NCBI GenBank assembly: GCA_964007475.1
Contig: OZ023274.1
Location: forward strand, 25,263,090 to 25,327,089
Length of the DNA: 64,000 nt
DNA from: Hybos culiciformis
Taxonomy: Eukaryota > Arthropoda > Insecta > Diptera > Hybotidae
Reading direction: 5' to 3'
Of this stretch, positions 7,737 through 62,759 are shown in pieces; the stretch's first letter is position 1, and each line of letters opens with the position of its first letter. A model generated the notes under the pieces. The model saw only the letters and a list, made by a program, of their open reading frames with translations. It was not told where the DNA came from and searched no databases. Position numbers and translations under genes: made by a program.

Positions 7737-8461
7737 CAGCGGCGGACTGGCACCAAAATTCGGCCCGGGCATTTCAAAATTATTCGTTGCAATATGTCAC
7801 GTCTTTAAAGTCTTTTAAGAGCGTTGTAATGAAATTTGCTTAGAAAATAATAAATAATAAATCTAACTCATTAGTATTTAAAAAATAAGCTTATGTAAAA
7901 TTTCTATGCATCTATGTTCTATGTCCCAATCAAAAAATCTGAGTCTACCTCTGTGTATGAAGAAAAATTTATTTTCTACTTTTTCATGCGGCTTGGCCTC
8001 AGTTTTGTTTAAAAACTCATTTTTTATTTATTTTTATTTTCTGTCTTTTTCACGTTAAGTAAATTGTTTTTACAAATTTTCCTCGATTTTACATGAAAGT
8101 TTTTATGGTTGTTGAAGATTTATCACTAATCATACCGATGAAAATTTTTCCGATGATTTTCCCGCTTTTCCGGGTTTTCCATGGAGTTTTCCACAAAAGC
8201 TACTTTATACAACTCATTACGCTATACAATTTTGTCTCAGGTTGCAAAACGCTCAAATGGAGAAACTCCGGAAAAACGTTTTACCTGAACTTTCCTAGAT
8301 TTTTTCTGCAAGTTTTCACCATTGTCGGAGAGAAATTAATGATGCCATTTAATAGGTAACTTGATCCTGCATAGTTTAGAAAATTTTTTTACCGGAAATT
8401 TTTTCGAAAAAATCGGAAACTCTGCATTTTCCCGGTATGCCCGACTGCCAGTCCGCCGCTG
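7737..8461 (+). mobile_element. Non-autonomous hAT-type element, 725 bp
   Basis: The ends are CAGCGGCGGACTGGCA on the left and its reverse complement TGCCAGTCCGCCGCTG on the right. The element is flanked by a perfect 8 bp direct repeat, TTCCAAAG (7729-7736 and 8462-8469). CAG...CTG ends with an 8 bp duplication are the signature of hAT transposons. There is no transposase frame. From about 7917 to the right end the interior is one half of the fold-back repeat seen at 0.4-1.3 kb and 52.5-53.3 kb, including the CCCAATCAAAAAATCTGAG block. The 88-codon frame at 8093-8359 is part of that repeat and not a gene. The perfect duplication suggests a comparatively recent insertion. Confidence 0.9.
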
Positions 8462-16180: not shown

Positions 16181-18328
16181 CTATAGTACATAGTACATAC
16201 TTCAATCGAACTAGTGAATGGCTTTAGAAAAATTTTGTCTTTATCATAGCAAGGAAAAATAGCTAACTTTTTAATATATCTGTTCATATGATTATGTATA
16301 GCAATGTTTGTCATAAAAATTTCAGAAACTCATATTGTTTAAAAAAATATTTTTTATTATTTAATTTTCCCCCAGAAAAACAATAAAAATTATATTTTTT
16401 GAGTAGCAAATTTTGCTAAAATTCATTTGCTATATATTTTTGGACGAGATATTATGTATTTAATAATAAATGCAAGAGTTTCAGCACTAACTAACTGAAA
16501 ATTTTGTAGTTTTAGTTATAACTTTATGGCTGTTTCTTGTAAAGCTTAGCTTCTATAGACTCGTGATAATATAATGACATGTTTTTGTGAACTAGAATAC
16601 CTTAGCATCAAAATATTAGAAATACACAATCGAATAACACAATTTATAGAGAAAATCATATCAGATTTCTACAATTTATTCGGAGATAAATACCATAATA
16701 AATTATGCAACATTAACAATTTTTTTCCAGAATTTGGTATTCAATTCTCTATTGTAGTTTCGATTAATCAACTAAAATATAATTTATTCTTGTAAACAAA
16801 TTGCATTACTACTTATTTTGCTTACAAAATAATGTTAATACAATATAGCTAAGCTCTTTTATACCTTAGAATCTGATAGTAAGAACTTTATTTTTTATTC
16901 CTTTTTTTTAATATGTTTTTTATATCTGTACTATACAACATAGATATGAGTATATATTTTCTAAATATAATTTAAAATTAACAAAATGTTAAATGATTAT
17001 TTTGTCATGATATAAAACTTATTATATACATTAGTTCTTATAGTAAATGTATATATTGTATTATTTTTGTTTCTTACTATAGAGAATTTATGAAATATAT
17101 ATATACCTAGTAGTTGTATCTTGTCTCTATTGTTATTAAAATTTTCTTATGCAAAACTTTTGAAGTGCGATTGTAATTATGATATATAATATTATAATAG
17201 TATATATATAGTTAGTATAGTATAGTGTTATTTTAGGTCAAAAGGTTTTGTAATTAAAATTTTTGTTATTAATGTTTAGAGAGAGTACAAAATCTTTTCT
17301 AAAGTAATAATAATTTTAATAAGAAGCTCAATCTTATTTTCATTCATAAGAAGATGAAGAATATTTTATATAGTAGTACGTAGGATACGTTGTAAATTAT
17401 TTTCAGAATAAAATTTTTTTTTCTCATTTAGAAGTACCCAATTACATATACAAATTCTTTATTCATTGAAAAAAATACGGTAGAAAATTAGCTATAAAAT
17501 ATATAGCACAGATTATGAGAAAAACTGCATTATTTTTTCTTACAGAATTGTGCTAAAAATCTTGCATTTATTATGTCCAAATTGTATAGCTATACGCTAT
17601 AGCAATTTGTATCGAAATTTGGTACACTCCATAATTATTTTTTTTAGCGAAATATAATTTTTATACAAAATCGATTTCTGTCAGATATTGCTATAATCAT
17701 ATAAACTTATATATAAAAAATAAAAGTAGATATTTTTCTTTAAAATTTATCTTGCTAAAAGCATCCACTACACCTTTTCCAAGTGTAATTCAGAAAGTAT
17801 AAATTTTAATTCAGAAAGTATCAATTGTAATTCATATTAGTCAATTTTAATTCAGAAAGTATCAATTGTAGTTCAAGTTCAGATTAACCAATTTTAATTC
17901 AGAAAATGTCAATTCTAATTCAGAAAGTATCAATTGTATTTCAGAAAGTATGAACTGTAATTCAGAAAGTATCAATTAAAATCTCAACTGCATATTATTA
18001 TTTTTTTTTTAAATTCTTTCATCTATTCCTAAACATTAATAAAATATAAATATAAGGTTTGATAAATATATATTGTCATTTTTTAAATTCCATTCCGGCT
18101 TTCTGAATTACAATTGATAGTTTCTGAATTAAAATTGGCTAATCTGAATTTCAATTGATACTTTCAGAATTAAATTTGACTAATATGAATTTCAACTGAT
18201 ACTTTCTGAATTAAAATTGACTAATACGAATTACAATTGATACTTTCTGAATTACACTTGGAAAAGTATAGTAAGAAATTATGCACAGAAATTATAGCTG
18301 CGGCAACTATCTGTTTTTTTTCAGTGTA
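16180..18328 (+). mobile_element. GCTAT-family TA-type element, copy 1
   Basis: This region shares diverged but collinear blocks with about 58110-59990: ATCGAACT, TTTTTAATATATCTGTT, TTTGTCATAAAAAT, TAATAATAAATGCAAGA, GTTTTAGTTATAA, and GCGAAATATAA followed by ATATTGCTATAATCATAT. It ends TTTTTTTTCAGTG followed by TA (18329-18330), the same terminus as the 13.8 kb fragment and like the right end of the 8564-10751 element. The left end is not clear. GCTATA and AGCAAA motifs recur throughout. Between 17775 and 18265 it carries an inverted array that the 58 kb copy lacks. The frame at 16574-16795 lies inside the repeat and is not recognisable. Confidence 0.6.
17775..18265. repeat. Inverted arrays of a short tandem motif
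   Basis: The outer ends TTTTCCAAGTGTAATTCAG and its complement at 18247-18265 form a terminal inverted repeat. The left half contains repeated AATTCAGAAAGTATCAATTG units and AGTCAATTTT variants. The right half contains the same units in the opposite orientation (CAATTGATACTTTCTGAATT). An unrelated spacer of about 110 bp lies between (about 17985-18095). It is absent from the family copy at 58-60 kb, so it looks like an insertion. Confidence 0.85.
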
Positions 18329-24857: not shown

Positions 24858-24922
24858 AAATTATACTGTGCGTTTCAGTTTAGAACTGTAAACGTCCTTA
24901 AGACACCAGGACGAAACAATTT
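24858..24922 (+). ncRNA. Decayed hammerhead-ribozyme-like sequence
   Basis: Stem II (GTCCT 24894-24898 with AGGAC 24908-24912), the conserved GAAA (24913-24916) and CAATTT (24917-24922) match the intact hammerhead at 37355-37426. Similarity continues downstream through a TTCAGTAATTTC-like block. The CUGAUGA core, however, reads CTGTAAAC (24886-24893), and stem I cannot be drawn convincingly. A possible stem III strand, AAATT then ATA, lies at 24858-24865. I read it as a dead relative of the 37 kb ribozyme. Confidence 0.5.
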
Positions 24923-25203
24923 AATAATCTTTCAGTAATTTCATGTAAGAAGTATTCTGAAATAATAAAGGAGAGGTAGATTACATAAGTTTCTTGTTTG
25001 AATTAATAAAAATTAAAAAAAAACTATGAACAATCACTTGACAAGACAAGACACAGGTTTTTTTTTTTTTTAGCCATTCTTCTAATTTCAACTTGTTAGA
25101 ACAAATTAAAGACAAATCAACAGCATCCGATCCGATTATTTAATAATTGCATCTACTTTTTTGTTGCATTTAACTTCAGATCCAAGCAAATTTTATACAA
25201 CAT

Positions 25204-36078: not shown

Positions 36079-36933
36079 TAGGGTTGTGATTTTTAGGTAA
36101 TTACCTTTTTTCAGTCGTGCGTAATAACAGATTTTTATTAAAATATCTCCACGTTTCGAAAAATTTGCTGTAATTTGAGCCCAATATGTTAGCGACTTTT
36201 TCTACCTATTTCATGTTTTAGCGACTATTTCGACTTTTTTGACTTTTACTGACTTTTTTAAACATTTTTGACTTTTTTAGGAACTATTTTACCAATTTTG
36301 TTCTTACATTAAAGGCCGTCATAATGAAAAACATGGATTTTTCAATTTTGAAAAAAATTTCAAACATAATATCTGGCAGAAGAATGATATTTGCGAGCAA
36401 TATAACGTTCAGGAAATAATTCCCTTTAAGTATGGCTCTATTACTTCGACAGAAGTTGAAAGATCATTTTCTATAAATAAAAATCTTTTCAGATCTAACC
36501 GACAAAAATTTGAATTCGAAAATTTACGAAAGCATTTTGTAATTTATTGCAATAAATCAATCAATAATTAAGAAACGTTTTTACATTTTTATTTCAAAAT
36601 CCATGTTCATTTTTTAAGTTTTTTGTGCAATGAAATTTATATTTTTTTTTAACTTTTAAATGAAATTGCTATATTAATATATTCGCACAATAAATAATAT
36701 GAAAATCCAAAATTATTATCTTTTTCATCATTCGTAGATTTGAAATTTTTGTATCAAAATCTAAATTTCTGTAAATTTTTCGGAAATTTTTTTTAACTAT
36801 TTTTTTTAACTATTTTTTTTAACTATTTTTTTAGCGACTTTTTTAGTGACTTTTTTAGCGACTTTTTTTGTTTTTTTAGGAACTTTTTAGGTGTCTAAAC
36901 AAGGTTTTTAAGGAACTAAAATTCACAAGCCTA
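36079..36933 (+). mobile_element. hAT element remnant, copy 1 (855 bp)
   Basis: TIRs TAGGGTTGTGATTTTTAGG and (inverted right end) TAGGCTTGTGAATTTTAG are flanked by a perfect 8 bp duplication GTCATTAC (36071-36078, 36934-36941). Subterminal GCGACTTTTT-type motifs repeat on both sides, as expected for hAT transposase binding regions. The centre retains the 3' end of a hAT transposase gene (36281-36571). An inverted sister copy lies at 60991-61770. Confidence 0.92.
36281..36571 (+). pseudogene. hAT transposase, C-terminal dimerisation segment
   Basis: The frame is open from just after a TAG at 36278-36280 to TAA at 36569-36571 (96 codons) but has no suitable start and no DDE-domain sequence. 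The C-terminal 50 residues contain the hallmark of the hAT C-terminal dimerisation region: SITSTEVERSFS, then a basic RSNRQKF segment and ENLRKHFVIY. In intact hAT transposases this region mediates oligomerisation and lies at the very C-terminus. All upstream catalytic and zinc-finger parts are gone, so the element depends on a transposase encoded elsewhere. The sister copy carries an extra stop and a roughly 60-70 bp deletion in this segment. Confidence 0.85.
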
Positions 36934-37354: not shown

Positions 37355-37426
37355 GAATTGTAAATGATAGGTATCAAGTAAATCATTCTGATGAGTCCTA
37401 AGCTTGATACCAGGACGAAACAATTC
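37355..37426 (+). ncRNA. Hammerhead ribozyme, type III, apparently intact
   Basis: All parts of a hammerhead are present in order. Stem III 5' strand GAATTG (37355-37360); cleavage triplet GTA, cut predicted after A37362; stem I AATGAT (37363-37368) with ATCATT (37382-37387); core CTGATGA (37388-37394); stem II GTCCT (37395-37399) with AGGAC (37412-37416); core GAAA (37417-37420); stem III 3' strand CAATTC (37421-37426). Every stem pair is Watson-Crick. Loop I contains GGTATCAAG (37370-37378) and loop II contains its exact complement CTTGATACC (37403-37411), which would give the loop-loop contact natural hammerheads need, here unusually long. Hammerheads of this kind act as self-cleaving RNAs, often in Penelope-like or other retroelements. 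I see no reverse transcriptase nearby. A decayed relative lies at 24858-24922. Confidence 0.88.
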
Positions 37427-40400
37427 AAAAAAATTTAGTAATTTTCAAAAAAATTAAGTTTCCTAGATAAAATATTAAAATACAATTTTCAGTTTACTTC
37501 ACCATCTACTTAAAAAAATCATGTCTGTAAAATCGATCGTAAATATTCAAAGATATAAATATAAGTAAAGCTTAACTCCTCTAAACCTTACTTGAGAACC
37601 GACGTCACAAATATAGCCGAGATTATATATAATTAAAAAAAATGCTTTACATGAATCTTGATAATTTTTTGATGCGCACTATCAATATAAATAAAATAAT
37701 TTTATTATGTAAGTACTAAATATGTATCAAAATTTTTTATTCTGTAATTCTAATTTTTTTTTATTAAAAGAAAAAAAAATTTTTTTTTTCATATAATTTT
37801 ATTATTTATTCCACGTCTACCTATTTATAATTTTAAATGTCTTTTATTTGTTTTAATTCAGCATAGAGTAACAAAAACCATTTATTTTTTCTTTTGTGTT
37901 CAACCCAAAAAAATTTTTTTTTGATCCTCATTAACCTTTTTTTTTTTATTTTATTTTATTCGTATCTTGGGGAATTTATGTGATATGTTATTAAGTTGAA
38001 AAATATCCCTCAAGGCAGTTTTGATCTAAAATGGAAATCATGATGAATTTTAAAGGGTTTTTTTTTTTAAATATTTTTGCAAAATAATATAATAATAATT
38101 CTGGATATAGAATTAAGTTGTTTGGGAACATAAGAAGCCCAAAGAATTAAAAGAAAATTTTAATTTTAGATTTAGGATAAAAAAAAAGAGTCTTTGATTA
38201 ATTTAAAACATTTTTTTTTTCCTTTATTAATTTTATATCCATTTATTTTGAATAATATTAATTTTGTTTAAAAAAATTTATATGCTAACAGGTTTCTAAC
38301 ACGTTTCTAACAATAATTTTTCCTACAGAATTCATACTAAATTTTTTGATTGAAATATCATTATATCAATATAATTTAAATTTAAATTTTATTAAACCTA
38401 AATTATGTTGAAATTTTCTACAAAAATGTTGTAGTTTTTGTCGAAATTGTACTCATATTATTTTTCAATTATTTTCTGCACAAAAATTTTGAATTTAATT
38501 CATTTTATTAAATTCAAATATGCATGCACAATCTATATTATTTGTACTACAGAGATAGCTATACAGTGCATTTAGCTACTATATTTTTATTTTATTATTT
38601 TCACTTGTAATTTTCAATAACGCATTATTTTTTCCTTAAAATAAAATAAATTTACTTTAAAAATTCATTCAATATTTAAATTTATGATAAAATTATGTTA
38701 TTCTTGTTAAAATTTTGTTTGACATACATTGATTGCTGTGAATGAAGTTTTTCATTAAAAACGTAAAATTTTCATATTTCAAAAAAATTTTGCTTGATTT
38801 TAAATCAGAAAATATATAAATATACTATTTTGTCTACAAACTAGAATGTTTATCTATCTATGTATAAAGGTTATACAACAGAAATCCTATTGAATATAGT
38901 TTAAAAGGGTTAAGGTAACAAATAGAATACGAATACAGTTATGGATATTATGTTTATGTATAATGTTCGTTTTTTTTTTTTGGTAAAAATATGTAGTTAA
39001 AGATTTTATACTTTTTGAAAAAGATGAAATAAATTTTCACAGAAACCTTCTTAATTGACTAAATACTTCAATATATAATAATTCAAAAAAAAAAAAAAAA
39101 AACCAAAAGGTGAATGAGATTTATTAACTTTTATTGTTTATAATCTTGTGATCCTAGACTTAGATATATTTTGTTGAAATTTTACATCAAAAAAAAAAAA
39201 GGATGATAAAAAATATATTCTTTAAAATATTACATATATATGTGTTATACTAAGTGTACTATGGTGAACTTATTTTCGAATACAAAGTAAATGATAACAA
39301 AAATATTTTTTTAAATAAATTTTTTTGAATACAAAAAACTATATTTAGTAGAATTATTAGTTATTTGTTTTCAAGAGTGTAGAAATGGAAAGTTTTATTG
39401 GACATTGTATTTATCCCATAATTTAACAGAACAACATCCAATCAAAATTTAATTAAAAATGTATAGACTAAAAAGAACGACGCCATGGTCACCGTTTATA
39501 TATATACGAACATCACCTTTTATAAAAGTTACCAAAGAGTATGTTTACAAATCATAAATGAAATGCTTTTAAGAATAAGATTACTGTGGGATTACTGTGA
39601 ACTTATTGAAAATTAACATTAAAATGAACTAATTTTTATCTATGTATATGTATTTCCAAAAGACGGGTAAAAAAATATGCTAAAACAAGATTTTGCTCGT
39701 TGGGGATCTTATTAAAATTGATAAATTTATTCATTTAATTTTAGGCTGAAATTAAAAATTCTACCTATTTTATTTTTTCTATAAGTAAAATTTAATTTAT
39801 GATGAAGGGAAAAAGCTTTTGGTTTAAAGATAAAAAGAAATCGTTTTACATACCTAGATATTTTTGATTTATGATTTTTTTTTGTATTTTTAATTAGACA
39901 TATCCTATGAAAAAAAAAAGAAAAAATAAAATGTGGAAGAGGTAATGGTATATGATAACTCATTGATTAAAGAGAATAGAAGGATACCGCAAGATAAAAC
40001 ATTTTGTAATAAACTTCCTAGAGTGACATGAATTTACAACGGAGAGTGTTTTCATTTAAGAGATCTGATACGGAATTTGTTTTTTAAAGAAAAAAAATGT
40101 ATACCTGTACGATTTAATGAACATTTTACATTAATATCATTTGTCTTCTGTTACGCAAGAAATAATATTTCAATATGTTTTTTATAAGATTTAAAATTAG
40201 GTTTTGTTATAAAAAATTAAAATAATTTACAAAGTAGTAATCTATAGATGAGTATAACTCAAACTATAAACATTGAAATTTTTTTTAATGTTACACACAT
40301 TTCCTAACTATAGTTATTAAGTAAATATTTTAAATTTTTTGTTACATTTTTTTATAAAAAATAAATTCAATCACCTATAATCTATTTAAAGTCTGAAAAA

Positions 40401-52100: not shown

Positions 52101-52500
52101 GTGTTTCTGCCTGGTAATCTAGGAACTTCAAAGTATTGGGCTCCTGTCTTGGCTTAATGTGCTGAGTACATTGATTCAAATGCTCTCCTCCATCCGCCTT
52201 TATATCTCCTGCTGTTATTCAATTTTTCTTTTTTTTATTAAAAAATTTAACCCTTTACAAAAAAAAAAAATTGAAACAAAATTCGGAAGTTAACTAAAGA
52301 TAGTGAATATTCAAAATTTGATCGGGTGAAAATTTAAATTTACGAAAATCTGCGAAAATTGTTACAAAAAACTACATGGCGAATTAGTAACCAAAATATC
52401 TACTATTTACTATTTGAATTTTAAAAGTCTCATTTAAAATTATTTTTAATTTTTTTTTAATAAAAATTTTTAAAATTCTTAAAAAAAATTATTTAAAATT

Positions 52501-53061
52501 AAAAAAAGGCAGAAAATAAAAATAAGTTAAAAACGAGTTTTCCAAAAAACTGAGGCCAGGCCGCATGAAAAAGTAGAAAATAACTTTTTCTTCACACACA
52601 GAGGTGGAGTCAGATTTTTTGATTGGGACTTTTCTCTTGAATATTCTTTCTCTTCATGAATCAAATCACTTACGTCCCAATCAAAAAGTCGTTTTTAACT
52701 TATTTTTTATTTTCTGCCTTTTTCACGTTAACTAAATTGTTATTATGTGCTGCATGGATGTTTGAAAACAATTTTATGACTAATCATATCGATGAAAATT
52801 TTTACGATGATTTTTCCGCTTTTTCGGGTTTTCCATGGAGTTTTCTGCAAAAGAAACTTTATGCAACTCATTTCGCTCTAAAACTTTGTCTCAGGTTGTA
52901 AAACGCTCAAACGCTTCCTTGGTCGGAAAAACTCCGGAAAAGCGTTTTACATGAATTTTCTTCGATTTTTTCTGCAAGTTTTCACCATTGTCGGAGAGAA
53001 AGTAATGATGCCAGTTGATAGGGAACTTGATCCTGCATAATTTAGAAAACGTTTTTACCGG

Positions 53062-53094
<33 letters not shown>

Positions 53095-53352
53095 TCGGAA
53101 AAATCAGAAAACTTTGAATTTTTCCTAAAACGGATTTATCACTACTCAAATTTGTACCAAATTTTCAAATGATTTTTCCCGATTTTCCGGGTTTTTCATG
53201 GAAATTTCCGTTTCAAATTTTGATGGCTTCAATTGTCACGCCACATGAACCTGTGTGCTAAATTTCAGCTCGCTGTGATAACGAAAAGTGGGTCTACGAG
53301 AGTGTCGAAAATAACAGACAAATTACTTTACGAGGTAATAAGAATTGTGTAC
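52501..53352 (+). repeat. Fold-back repeat family, copy 3 (right half)
   Basis: The left hairpin arm (to about 52630), the conserved spacer with CATGAATCAAATCACTTAC, and the start of the right arm are present. The right arm is then cut short at about 52687 by an internal deletion. The body to the right matches copy 1 read backwards, including CCTGTGTGCTAAATTTCAGC and GTGGGTCTACGAGAGTGTCG. A pure T run of about 27 sits at 53066-53093. The 81-codon frame at 52656-52901 is part of the repeat. Confidence 0.85.
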
Positions 53353-53478
53353 TCAAAAAAAAATGTTCCGGGATGCATTTTTCCATCCTAAGAAGTGGTG
53401 CGATGAGTTTACAATTATTTAGAAGTACCGGGATGGCATCCCACCCCATCCCGCCTCACTTCGAGCACTGCATGTAGG

Positions 53479-59990: not shown

Positions 59991-60982
59991 AAAATTTATT
60001 ATTTTTATTATTATACGTATCTGTGATCTGGGAGTTTTCTAGTATTTCACAAGGAAGCTGTAACTTAAATATATTTTGAAAGTATTTTTCAAAAATTTTC
60101 ATAAAAAAGAGCATTGAAAAATTCTAAAGTAATTGATAAATATCATGTTATGCCATTTCGATTTTTTTACGCCTATATAATCACTACCAATGCCACATTT
60201 AATCTGTATATAGGTGTAAACACACTAAACGCGCTCCTACCTAATTTGCAACTTCTTTTTAATAATTTTTCTCGTGCAGTAAACAAAACTAAATTCAACT
60301 TATTATACAAAAATATATAAAAGATTCTTTCTAAACACATAAAATACAGATACACCAAAATAGAATAAATAATATTAATCCTAAAAATATGTGATAGAAA
60401 ATAAAATAAAATAACATTATCTTTTATTTAAATTAAAATTTGAATTTATTAAAATATTTCATTCAAATGAATCTAATAAATTAAATGACGCCTGATTCTG
60501 GGCACGTGACTTATTGCCATACAGATTTGTTTTTAGAATATAATCTCGATTATTTGTGTTTTTTTTTAATGTTTTTTTTAAAGCTGATGTCCTTGATAAA
60601 AATGTGTAGATGTAAATTTTTTTTTCAATGTTATTTATCCTTTTTTTTTTCGTATATAAATTTAATGCAGTATTTTGTCTATTTAATAATTTAGTCCCAT
60701 GCTGGGCTTTCTTGTTCTTGTTTTATCTGTTTTTAAACTACAGATTATATATATATATAGCTTATTATCAAAACATTCATAAATTATTTGACTTTAGTCC
60801 GAAAAAAAACCTTTTTCTAGCACAGTATAATTTAAAATTTATGTGAAATTGGACGAACTTGTGAAGATAAATCAGAACCCATATTATTTAATTTAGTCTC
60901 AGTGCAAAACTTTGTATAGAAGAGAAGCTAAAACTCTTATAAATATGTATTAAATGAAATCTAAATAAACCATATAAGTATA
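59991..60982. other. AT-rich gene-free stretch
   Basis: Overlapping short frames (60114-60320, 60173-60358, 60485-60694, 60628-60846) are chance or unrecognised. I see no element ends. Confidence 0.5.
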
Positions 60983-60990
60983 TTTATGAC

Positions 60991-61770
60991 TAGGCTTGTG
61001 AATTTTAGTTCCTTAAAAACCTTGTTTAGACACCTAAAAAGTTCCTAAAAAAACAAAAAAAAGTCGCTAAAAAAGACACTAAAAAAGTCGCTAAAAAAAT
61101 AGTTAAAAAAAATTTCCGAAAAATTTACAGAAATTTAGATTTTGATACAAAAATTTCAAATCTACGAATGATAAAAAAGATAATAATTTTGGATTTTCAT
61201 ATTATTTATTGTGCTAATATATTAATATAGCAATTTCATTTAAAAGTTAAAAAAAAATATAAATTTCATTGCACAAAAAACTTAAAAAATTAACATGGAT
61301 TTTGAAATAAAAATGTAAAAACGAGTTTATTAATTATTGATTGATTTATTGCAATAAATTACAAAATGCTTTCGTAAATTTTCGAATTCAAATTTTTATC
61401 GGTTAGATCTGAAAAGATTTTTATGTATAGAAAATGATCTTTCAACTTCTGTCGAAGTAATAGGGCCTTCTGCCTGATATTATGTTTGAAATTTTTTTCA
61501 AAATTGAAAAATCCATGTTTTTCATTATGACGGCCTTTAATGTAAGAACAAAATTGGTAAAATAGTTCCTAAAAAAGTCAAAAATGTTTAAAAAAGTCAG
61601 TAAAAGTAAAAAAAGTCGAAATAGTCGCTAAAACATGAAATAGGTAGAAAAAGTCGCTAACATATTGGGCTCAAATTACAGCAAATTTTTCGAAACGTGG
61701 AGATATTTTAATAAAAATCTGTTATTACGCACGACTGAAAAAAGGTAATTACCTAAAAATCACAACCCTA
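60991..61770 (-). mobile_element. hAT element remnant, copy 2 (780 bp, inverted)
   Basis: It carries the same TIRs as 36079-36933 in the opposite orientation, with its own perfect 8 bp duplication TTTATGAC (60983-60990, 61771-61778). Subterminal GTCGCTAAAAAA repeats are present. The two copies have different target duplications, so they inserted independently. This copy lacks about 60-70 bp found in copy 1 next to the transposase C-terminus. Confidence 0.92.
61330..61475 (-). pseudogene. hAT transposase C-terminus, broken
   Basis: The minus strand encodes ITSTEVERSFS and, after an in-frame TAA at 61396-61398 where copy 1 has CAA, continues KFEFENLRKHFV to TAA at 61330-61332. The sequence upstream of the PITST segment is deleted relative to copy 1. 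It is non-functional. Confidence 0.85.
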
Positions 61771-61778
61771 TTTATGAC

Positions 61779-62759
61779 TAATTGTTTTTCATATACTATT
61801 ACTAGGATCTATTAGTAGTTGATTGTTGGATTTCGGTTCCATATTAGAGTCATAAACAAAGCTTAACTTTATTACAATATTAATTTTTTTTATATTAATT
61901 TAATACTGTATGTTTTGAAAGCGAGTAAATTGATTTCACTATTATTATAATTTTGTAATAAATTTTGTTGTTCTAAAACTAAAAACCAAAAGGCTCTGTA
62001 TGAATATATTCTTTTTTTTTTAAATATTAAATATATATAGTAATAATAATAATGAACAATATATTATTAATATATTTTTTGGTTAAATAAATTGTTTTTT
62101 TTGCTAGATTTTATTTTTATGTAGCGCATAGCAAACATAATAATGATAGTTTGTGTCTGTGAAAAAAAAAAAATTAATAAAGTACATGACTTTATTATGT
62201 GTGGTGTAGATAGATTTTATAAAGATACTGTCCTATTCGAGACAAGGTTCAAAAACTAATTTATTATGTCGTTGTACAGAATAAAAGTATGGGGTTTTTA
62301 TTCTTAAATCTAATTGTATGTAAAGGTGCAATTCCATTAAAGCAGAAATGAACGACAGAAGGCATGCTACACGTTGCCTATTTCTAGTTGCGCGACATTG
62401 TGTATATGTATGTGGCATTTGAATCCTTAAGGAACGCGGCATTGACCATGCTTCTCATTGTTTTCCAATCTAAAGAACACGAAGCGTCACGATTCAAGTA
62501 TCCTTTCTGCATGCTAGACGTTACCCTGTGTTGCCAAGACGCATGCAGCATTTTCAACAAATTTTAAAAGCTCAGTTCCATTCAAGCAATAATGAACAAA
62601 CAAAAGGCACAAATTTTAATAATGTCGTATACGCCATTGCAATCCTAATGTCGAAATTTGGTATTACTAAACTTTAATAAACTACAGTTACTAGTTGAAA
62701 AGGCTGAAAATGAAGTACTAGCTCATTTAAAGTGTTCAGTTTCTTTTACGACTTTTACG
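61779..62759. other. AT-rich stretch with a GC-richer repeat island
   Basis: Between about 62233 and 62610 the DNA is noticeably GC-richer. Imperfect direct repeats are visible: TTCCATTAAAGCAGAAATGA / TTCCATTCAAGCAATAATGA (about 62333 and 62577) and GCATGCTACACGTTGCC / GCATGCTAGACGTTACC (about 62362 and 62510). A 69-codon minus-strand frame (62233-62442) covers part of it and is unrecognised. I cannot name the repeat. Confidence 0.45.

Follow-up and report, generated by a model that had tools for sequence, protein, structure and literature searches.

The question raised by this locus is what a complete type III hammerhead ribozyme motif is doing at positions 37355..37426 (+ strand) of a 64-kb stretch of the genome of the fly Hybos culiciformis. 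This whole stretch of 64,000 nucleotides is referred to here as the window. In general terms, two answers can be considered: (i) the motif is an orphan or host-adopted ribozyme, as suggested by a preliminary description which recognised no mobile element around it; or (ii) it is part of a repeat that moves through the genome. The evidence assembled below favours the latter. With a probability of roughly 0.85, judged from sequence, the motif belongs to a non-coding retrozyme with a unit of approximately 683 nt, copied by the reverse transcriptase (RT) and GIY-YIG endonuclease of a resident Penelope-like element (PLE).

The motif contains everything that characterises a type III hammerhead, i.e., CUGANGA and GAAA cores, an NUH triplet and three stems, with stem III open. 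All its parts lie on the + strand, and stems I, II and III comprise 6, 5 and 7 bp, respectively. Stem III pairs its 5' strand, GAAUUGU (37355..37361), with 37420-37426. The predicted cleavage site, which in the type III order follows A37362 of a GUA triplet, would fall at 37362..37363. The stem I hairpin (37363..37387) pairs 37363-37368 with 37382-37387 and encloses loop I (37369-37381), and is followed by the CUGAUGA core (37388..37394). The stem II hairpin (37395..37416) pairs 37395-37399 with 37412-37416 and encloses loop II (37400-37411), while the GAA(A) core (GAA at 37417-37419) and the stem III 3' strand complete the motif (37417..37426). All the stems, the cores and the triplet assigned in the preliminary description were recovered in their places. 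A hammerhead descriptor run on both strands of the window matched this motif only, with a summed stem length of 18; the same descriptor gave one weaker match (summed length 11) on both strands of 20 simulated windows (1.28 Mb) generated by a second-order Markov model with the same trinucleotide make-up. The Rfam covariance models, which had been named in advance as a check, did not recognise the motif: no hammerhead model matched the window at its gathering cut-off, and the best match at a relaxed threshold was RF00163, with 17.9 bits versus a cut-off of 34 (E = 0.067) and with stems I and III wrongly placed in the alignment. This miss is likely due to the loops of 13 and 12 nt, which depart from the models.

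The two loops are also where the motif is most unusual. Loop I (13 nt) is perfectly complementary to loop II (12 nt) over 9 nt, extended to 10 nt when one G-U pair is counted; the segments that pair are GGTATCAAG in loop I (37370..37378, +) and CTTGATACC in loop II (37403..37411, +). When the letters were shuffled within both loops, a complement of at least 9 nt appeared in 17 of 200,000 trials. These shuffles, together with the simulated windows, rule out a chance motif. For comparison, 27 distinct type III hammerheads from IMG/VR, among the matches listed, showed loop-loop pairings of at most 3 Watson-Crick pairs, or at most 4 with G-U pairs included (the loci compared, at least 120 stretches, were picked by a single stem II pattern). 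The complement had been described beforehand as perfect and unusually long, and both statements stand.

The motif is far from alone in the genome. A 181-bp query against the 342-Mb assembly (509 contigs) returned at least 41 matches, a lower bound given that the best 40 of 289 candidates were scored; many of them lie 675-700 bp apart, in both orientations. In turn, a strict core pattern found 78 hammerheads, many of them in head-to-tail and head-to-head arrays of nearly identical units, while the reversed control pattern found none. Short dispersed arrays and single copies occur on several contigs. The repeat is, then, what is expected of a retrozyme: non-coding, with approximately 683 bp and one hammerhead per unit, and present in tandem and dispersed copies. 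These copies rule out an orphan or host-adopted ribozyme. The motif sits in a multi-copy retrozyme-like repeat, nothing was seen that suggests host adoption, and the earlier impression of a motif without a recognisable element around it does not survive at the scale of the genome. No long open frame is retained across the four units examined, so the element carries no RT or GIY-YIG ORF. A 112-aa antisense open frame was seen in one unit and exceeds the length usually expected by chance (8 of 1000 shuffled circles reached it), but it was dropped as a coding candidate, since it is missing from three other subfamilies.

Unit positions are hereafter given on the ruler of one 683-bp array unit of locus L129. 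On this ruler, the copy in the window (37131..~37559, +; L131) is a 5'-truncated single copy that covers unit 1-431 without 432-683, and it is 95.6% identical to the L129 array unit over 434 columns. Its right end maps to unit 428-431, within the tail-less cluster of insertion ends discussed below, and the approximate position of this tail-less end is 37551..37559 (+), inside a module shared with the resident PLE. Neither a border repeat nor an inverted partner was found for this copy. A decayed relic of a second copy, 85% identical over 40 bp to unit 275-313, lies at 24902..24941 (+); it corresponds to the 3' half of the ribozyme, with stem II and GAAAC kept and stem I and CUGAUGA gone.

Several other features of the window can be mentioned. 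An open frame at 36281-36571, 0.6 kb upstream of the ribozyme element, has a Pfam match below the cut-off (E = 0.067) to the C-terminal dimerisation region of hAT transposases, and the segment 36068-36945 recurs inverted at 60979-61781 with 89% identity. Two arrays of ~20-bp units at 17774-18266 are mutual reverse complements and form a large imperfect palindrome. The segment 12671-12959 consists of 24 copies of the GC-rich 12-bp unit AGGGCGGAAGTG, in a window that otherwise has 24% GC, and three frames are open through it over 100-130 codons. Related copies of a dispersed repeat, 80-92% identical in pieces, occupy 407-1341, 7920-8419 and 52472-53359, and two of them have similar open frames of ~100 aa. 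Elsewhere in the genome, partial COX1-like pieces, some with TAA stops, occur outside contig C509 (G000:C215, C3:44776390) and are likely nuclear mitochondrial DNA copies or misassembly; the COX1 gene on C509 itself is read with the invertebrate mitochondrial code.

The arrays of the repeat are strikingly uniform. Counting substitutions but not indels, the mean distance within arrays was 0.0000-0.0023 in 8 of 10 arrays (the less uniform ones being L135, with 0.018, and L139, with 0.033), versus a mean distance of 0.026 over 45 pairs of different arrays. Over the compared segment, the units of the two arms are the same in every letter in L133 (7 units) and in L190 (4 units); in L134 and L136, array units differ by indels. 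The uniformity of the arrays and the identity of their arms point to each array having arisen in a single insertion from a single template sequence. Array units continue across the predicted cleavage site without a break, which is compatible with either circles or uncut multimers as the source.

Conservation of the ribozyme has to be counted with some care. From 41 loci, 70 of the 78 pattern-matched hammerheads were extracted (the other eight belong to a second array on C1, at 85075677-85080435, sampled only via L165), but the pattern itself demands the cores, so that their conservation in this set would be a circular argument. It was therefore counted in the loci fetched by similarity (L129-L140), where 30 of 35 ribozyme-spanning copies are identical over the 72 nt; of the other five, four carry a single substitution and the fifth a single inserted base. 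Pairwise comparisons among 12 loci taken as recent give the ribozyme a difference of 0.0023 per site (11 of 4741) and its flanks within the 431 bp one of 0.0273 (632 of 23152); with decayed loci included (29 loci), the values are 0.037 and 0.064. Sliding windows over the 12 recent loci placed the hammerhead at rank 50 of 360 when gaps were counted, i.e., it is not the least variable part, and unit 1-84 is also quiet in these loci. Nearly all recent copies are identical to each other; old copies have a decayed appearance, and in some of them stems are broken. The preliminary description had proposed a search for genomic copies with compensatory changes: copies were found in abundance, but no compensatory change was seen among 15 distinct ones, and a shuffle control did neither better nor worse.

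How the repeat enters new sites can be read from its borders. Insertions typically have two arms placed head-to-head, an arrangement found in L129, L132-L136 and L140, and in consequence both outer borders are formed by the right side of the element. For the mapping of ends, alignment rows with less than 40 columns, or reaching the edge of a locus, were dropped, and 70 rows were kept. Among these, 7 ran through and 34 gave outer right ends; the other 29 broke at unit 520-551 and were set aside as internal units of diverged subfamilies or, for L141, as a distant match of short length. The outer right ends fall at unit 423-439 (19 ends), 452-468 (14 ends) and 409 (one end); that is to say, 33 of 34 belong to two clusters approximately 37 nt apart. 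All ten insertions with both ends mapped, L140 included, have one end of each kind. Furthermore, border repeats of 13-18 bp, a length that may include some microhomology, were found in 7 of the 11 insertions examined (L129, L132-L136 and L140, the match in L133 being of low complexity) and were not found in L131 (the window copy), L137, L138 and L139. In a control with swapped borders, none of 110 pairings reached 13 bp and the longest repeat was 11 bp. At the head-to-head junction of L136 (unit ~654-683), an inverted repeat of ~29 nt was seen by eye across the junction, reminiscent of the palindromes at inverted junctions of PLEs. Regarding the other side of the element, 27 aligned copies have their start beyond unit 1, and none of them starts at the hammerhead cut (unit 232); the nearest starts at 237, in a check that dropped alignments of less than 150 bp and in which the start of the alignment may differ from the true junction in old copies. 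Hence, a linear monomer released by the cut is not an evident template, and an uncut multimer is a possible one.

These ends are those of PLEs. Reverse transcription of PLEs is described as beginning at two adjacent internal sites, which accounts for a 'tail' of 30-40 bp, and their insertion as cutting and extending both DNA strands at AT-rich targets (PMC11167929). Their pLTRs are reported to be inverted, with an optional extension (the 'tail') of ~31 bp on one of them and target site duplications (TSDs) of 8-10 bp, and to be sufficient for mobilisation in trans (PMC3846280). The repeat family shows the two end positions 30-40 nt apart, the single tailed end per insertion, the target duplication and the head-to-head arms; the window copy shows neither of the last two. 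The two clusters of ends, one of each per insertion, and the border repeats thus reproduce the published signature of PLEs, which points to a PLE enzyme as the mover.

The genome does host such elements. It contains 51 GIY-YIG matches, some in tandem open frames of 849 aa repeated every 3587 bp and some paired head-to-head, as judged by their coordinates. One PLE that was read has a single open frame, 822 aa long when counted from its first ATG to where the fetched stretch stops. When its regions were scanned apart, this frame matched RVT_1 (PF00078) with 33.7 bits (cut-off 29.6) and GIY-YIG with 28.5 bits (cut-off 22.6); a Pfam scan of the whole frame in one piece gave nothing at E 0.01, and a comparison with solved structures gave no match. 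Upstream of the ORF and of the RT-start region, at L191:1259, this PLE has a short hammerhead core (CTGATGAGGATG...CATCGAAAC) whose sequence is unlike the type III motif. The repeat and the PLE share a module: unit 383-497 aligns with L191:1345-1461 with 72.5% identity over 120 columns and a score of 53, versus a maximum of 45 in 1000 dinucleotide shuffles; a blastn control reached a maximum of 47 in 300 shuffles. The three PLE ends fetched, all from one PLE subfamily, map to unit 424, 437 and 464, and are homologous to the ends of the repeat. Since the module is only 72.5% identical, the partner of the repeat may be a PLE family other than the one fetched. In a published account of animal retrozymes, PLEs are named as no more than a strong candidate for their copying (PMC7229834).

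A life cycle can be proposed on these grounds. An array would be transcribed, and the type III hammerhead would cut the multimeric transcript into unit-length RNAs, which a host ligase would close into circles. The PLE enzyme, acting in trans, would open AT-rich DNA and start reverse transcription on the retrozyme RNA at either of two internal sites ~37 nt apart. Both broken DNA ends would be extended, the template being read around once or more. The expected outcome would be head-to-head arms of near-identical tandem units, a tail on just one of the two outer ends, and a duplication of the target.

Other origins of the repeat have to be weighed against this one. An ordinary tandem satellite with an incidental hammerhead, spread without retrotransposition through unequal exchange and gene conversion, would explain the satellite-like look of the head-to-tail arrays and their near-identical units, and it is on record that the first animal hammerhead came from newt satellite DNA (PMC7229834). 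Nevertheless, a satellite is very improbable in view of the short dispersed arrays and the single copies on several contigs, the border repeats in 7 of 11 insertions, and the 33 of 34 outer ends that fall in two clusters shared with PLEs. The odds are slimmer still for an infectious circular RNA, viroid-like or delta-like, of which the repeat would be DNA copies. This origin was considered because type III hammerheads with pseudoknots are reported in HDV-like RNAs of termites and toads, and similar hammerheads in termite and fly genomes (PMC7936874), and because one unit, modelled as a circle, is predicted to fold well (-105.3 kcal/mol; z = -3.9 versus 60 shuffles). However, the minus strand of the L129 unit has no CUGANGA core and there is no conserved ORF, as the 112-aa frame of one unit is missing from three other subfamilies; on these two grounds a viroid- or delta-like genome was rejected. 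No Rfam ribozyme was found on the minus strand either, although the plus-strand motif, too, gets a poor Rfam score, and the repeat ends its insertions as a cellular PLE does.

An internally deleted PLE, moving mainly in PLE-like multimeric transcripts, with the hammerhead as a relic and circles without a role, is less easily set aside, but it is still unlikely. Such an element would have the same module and end signature as a PLE. Besides, the PLEs of this genome are also tandem, so that tandem structure alone is no proof of a circular template, and insertion by a PLE in vitro is reported to be unaffected by hammerhead mutants (PMC11167929), so that the part of the ribozyme in mobility stays a proposal. 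Against a mere relic stand the ribozyme itself, a full type III hammerhead where that of the PLE is short and of different sequence, and its good conservation relative to the flanks (0.0023 vs 0.0273 in the 12 recent loci; 0.037 vs 0.064 in the 29).

A further alternative concerns one part of the element only and is compatible with the PLE-mobilised retrozyme. The 9-nt complement may act in either of two ways, as far as can be judged from the letters: (i) as a kissing helix that aids the active fold; or (ii) as a hold on an inactive fold. In the second case, the complement would pair as an ordinary long hairpin that abolishes stems I and II and, in this manner, would spare ligated circles from being cut again. 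Such a lock is a real possibility, at somewhat less than even odds. Programs that fold nested structures only, and hence cannot model pseudoknots, predict -20.8 kcal/mol for the locked fold versus -10.0 kcal/mol for the hammerhead without kissing pairs, with a modelled pairing probability of 0.999 for the loop-loop helix; the circle of 683 nt is also predicted to fold with this loop-loop hairpin. The loop-loop duplex, in turn, is worth -11.3 kcal/mol with 9 bp and -13.3 kcal/mol with 10 bp before any kissing penalty, so once this penalty is taken into account the active and locked folds could have similar energy. On the other hand, one survey considers loop I-loop II pseudoknots likely in about 40% of hammerheads, which makes a kissing role equally natural; it describes such pseudoknots as common and, in one type II ribozyme assayed, required for speed (PMC3088659).

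Among known systems, the non-LTR retrozymes of metazoans (PMC7229834) are the most obvious relatives: they are described as non-coding, AT-rich tandem repeats with a hammerhead in animal genomes, for which a circular RNA template and a non-LTR mode of insertion have been proposed. But these retrozymes are reported to carry type I hammerheads in units of ~150-450 bp, whereas the order of stems in the Hybos repeat is that of type III, in units of ~683 bp; and while mobilisation by PLEs is suggested for them, the Hybos repeat displays a PLE end signature and a shared module. With Penelope/Poseidon PLEs, as described in PMC11167929 and PMC3846280, the repeat has in common (i) end positions 30-40 nt apart with one tailed end; (ii) head-to-head arms, AT-rich borders, target duplications and tandem copies; and (iii) a hammerhead upstream of the RT-start region. 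It differs from them in the absence of an RT/endonuclease ORF, in its border repeats, which measure 13-18 bp where those of the rotifer PLE measure 8-10 bp (PMC3846280), and in its full type III hammerhead, the short hammerheads of PLEs being described as minimal type I forms (PMC7761336).

The LTR retrozymes of plants are reported to resemble the repeat in their type III hammerhead, their unit of ~700 nt and their dimers or oligomers (PMC7761336). Their marks are LTRs, a PBS, a PPT and a 4-bp TSD; the repeat differs in its PLE-type ends, its border repeats of at least 13 bp and its animal host. A type III hammerhead with a loop I-loop II pseudoknot is also described for HDV-like RNAs, for termite and fly genomes and for Drosophila pseudoobscura (PMC7936874). 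According to that source, the termite hammerheads are isolated genomic motifs and the HDV-like agents are circular RNAs, coding and 1.5-1.7 kb long, whose loop contact spans ~4 nt; the Hybos motif, instead, lies in a non-coding mobile repeat and has a 9-nt complement. Among the papers listed from the open-licence PMC literature (preprints excluded), none was seen to describe an animal retrozyme that is of type III or PLE-tailed, although a review alludes to type III elements of insects that are unpublished (PMC7761336).

A broader, and rather tentative, reading brings these parts together: a retrozyme that carries the RT-start module of a PLE, whose type III-cut circle would be a natural PLE template and whose loops would be a self-contained switch. 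Just as tentatively, the loop helix of 9-10 bp would permit cleavage in one fold and lock the ligated circle in the other. If this were true, the switch in the loops would replace the external blocking strand of viroids and plant retrozymes. According to PMC7229834, the blocking complement of viroids and plant retrozymes is absent from most animal retrozyme circles; a lock in the loops, if real, would fill this gap in the retrozyme literature. In any case, the PLE tail signature, together with a module resembling that of the resident PLE, makes the link between retrozymes and PLEs directly testable. Full type III hammerheads are reported mostly from plants and from the circular RNA agents that infect them (PMC7761336), and the repeat of Hybos places one in an animal mobile element, with a possible built-in cleavage switch.
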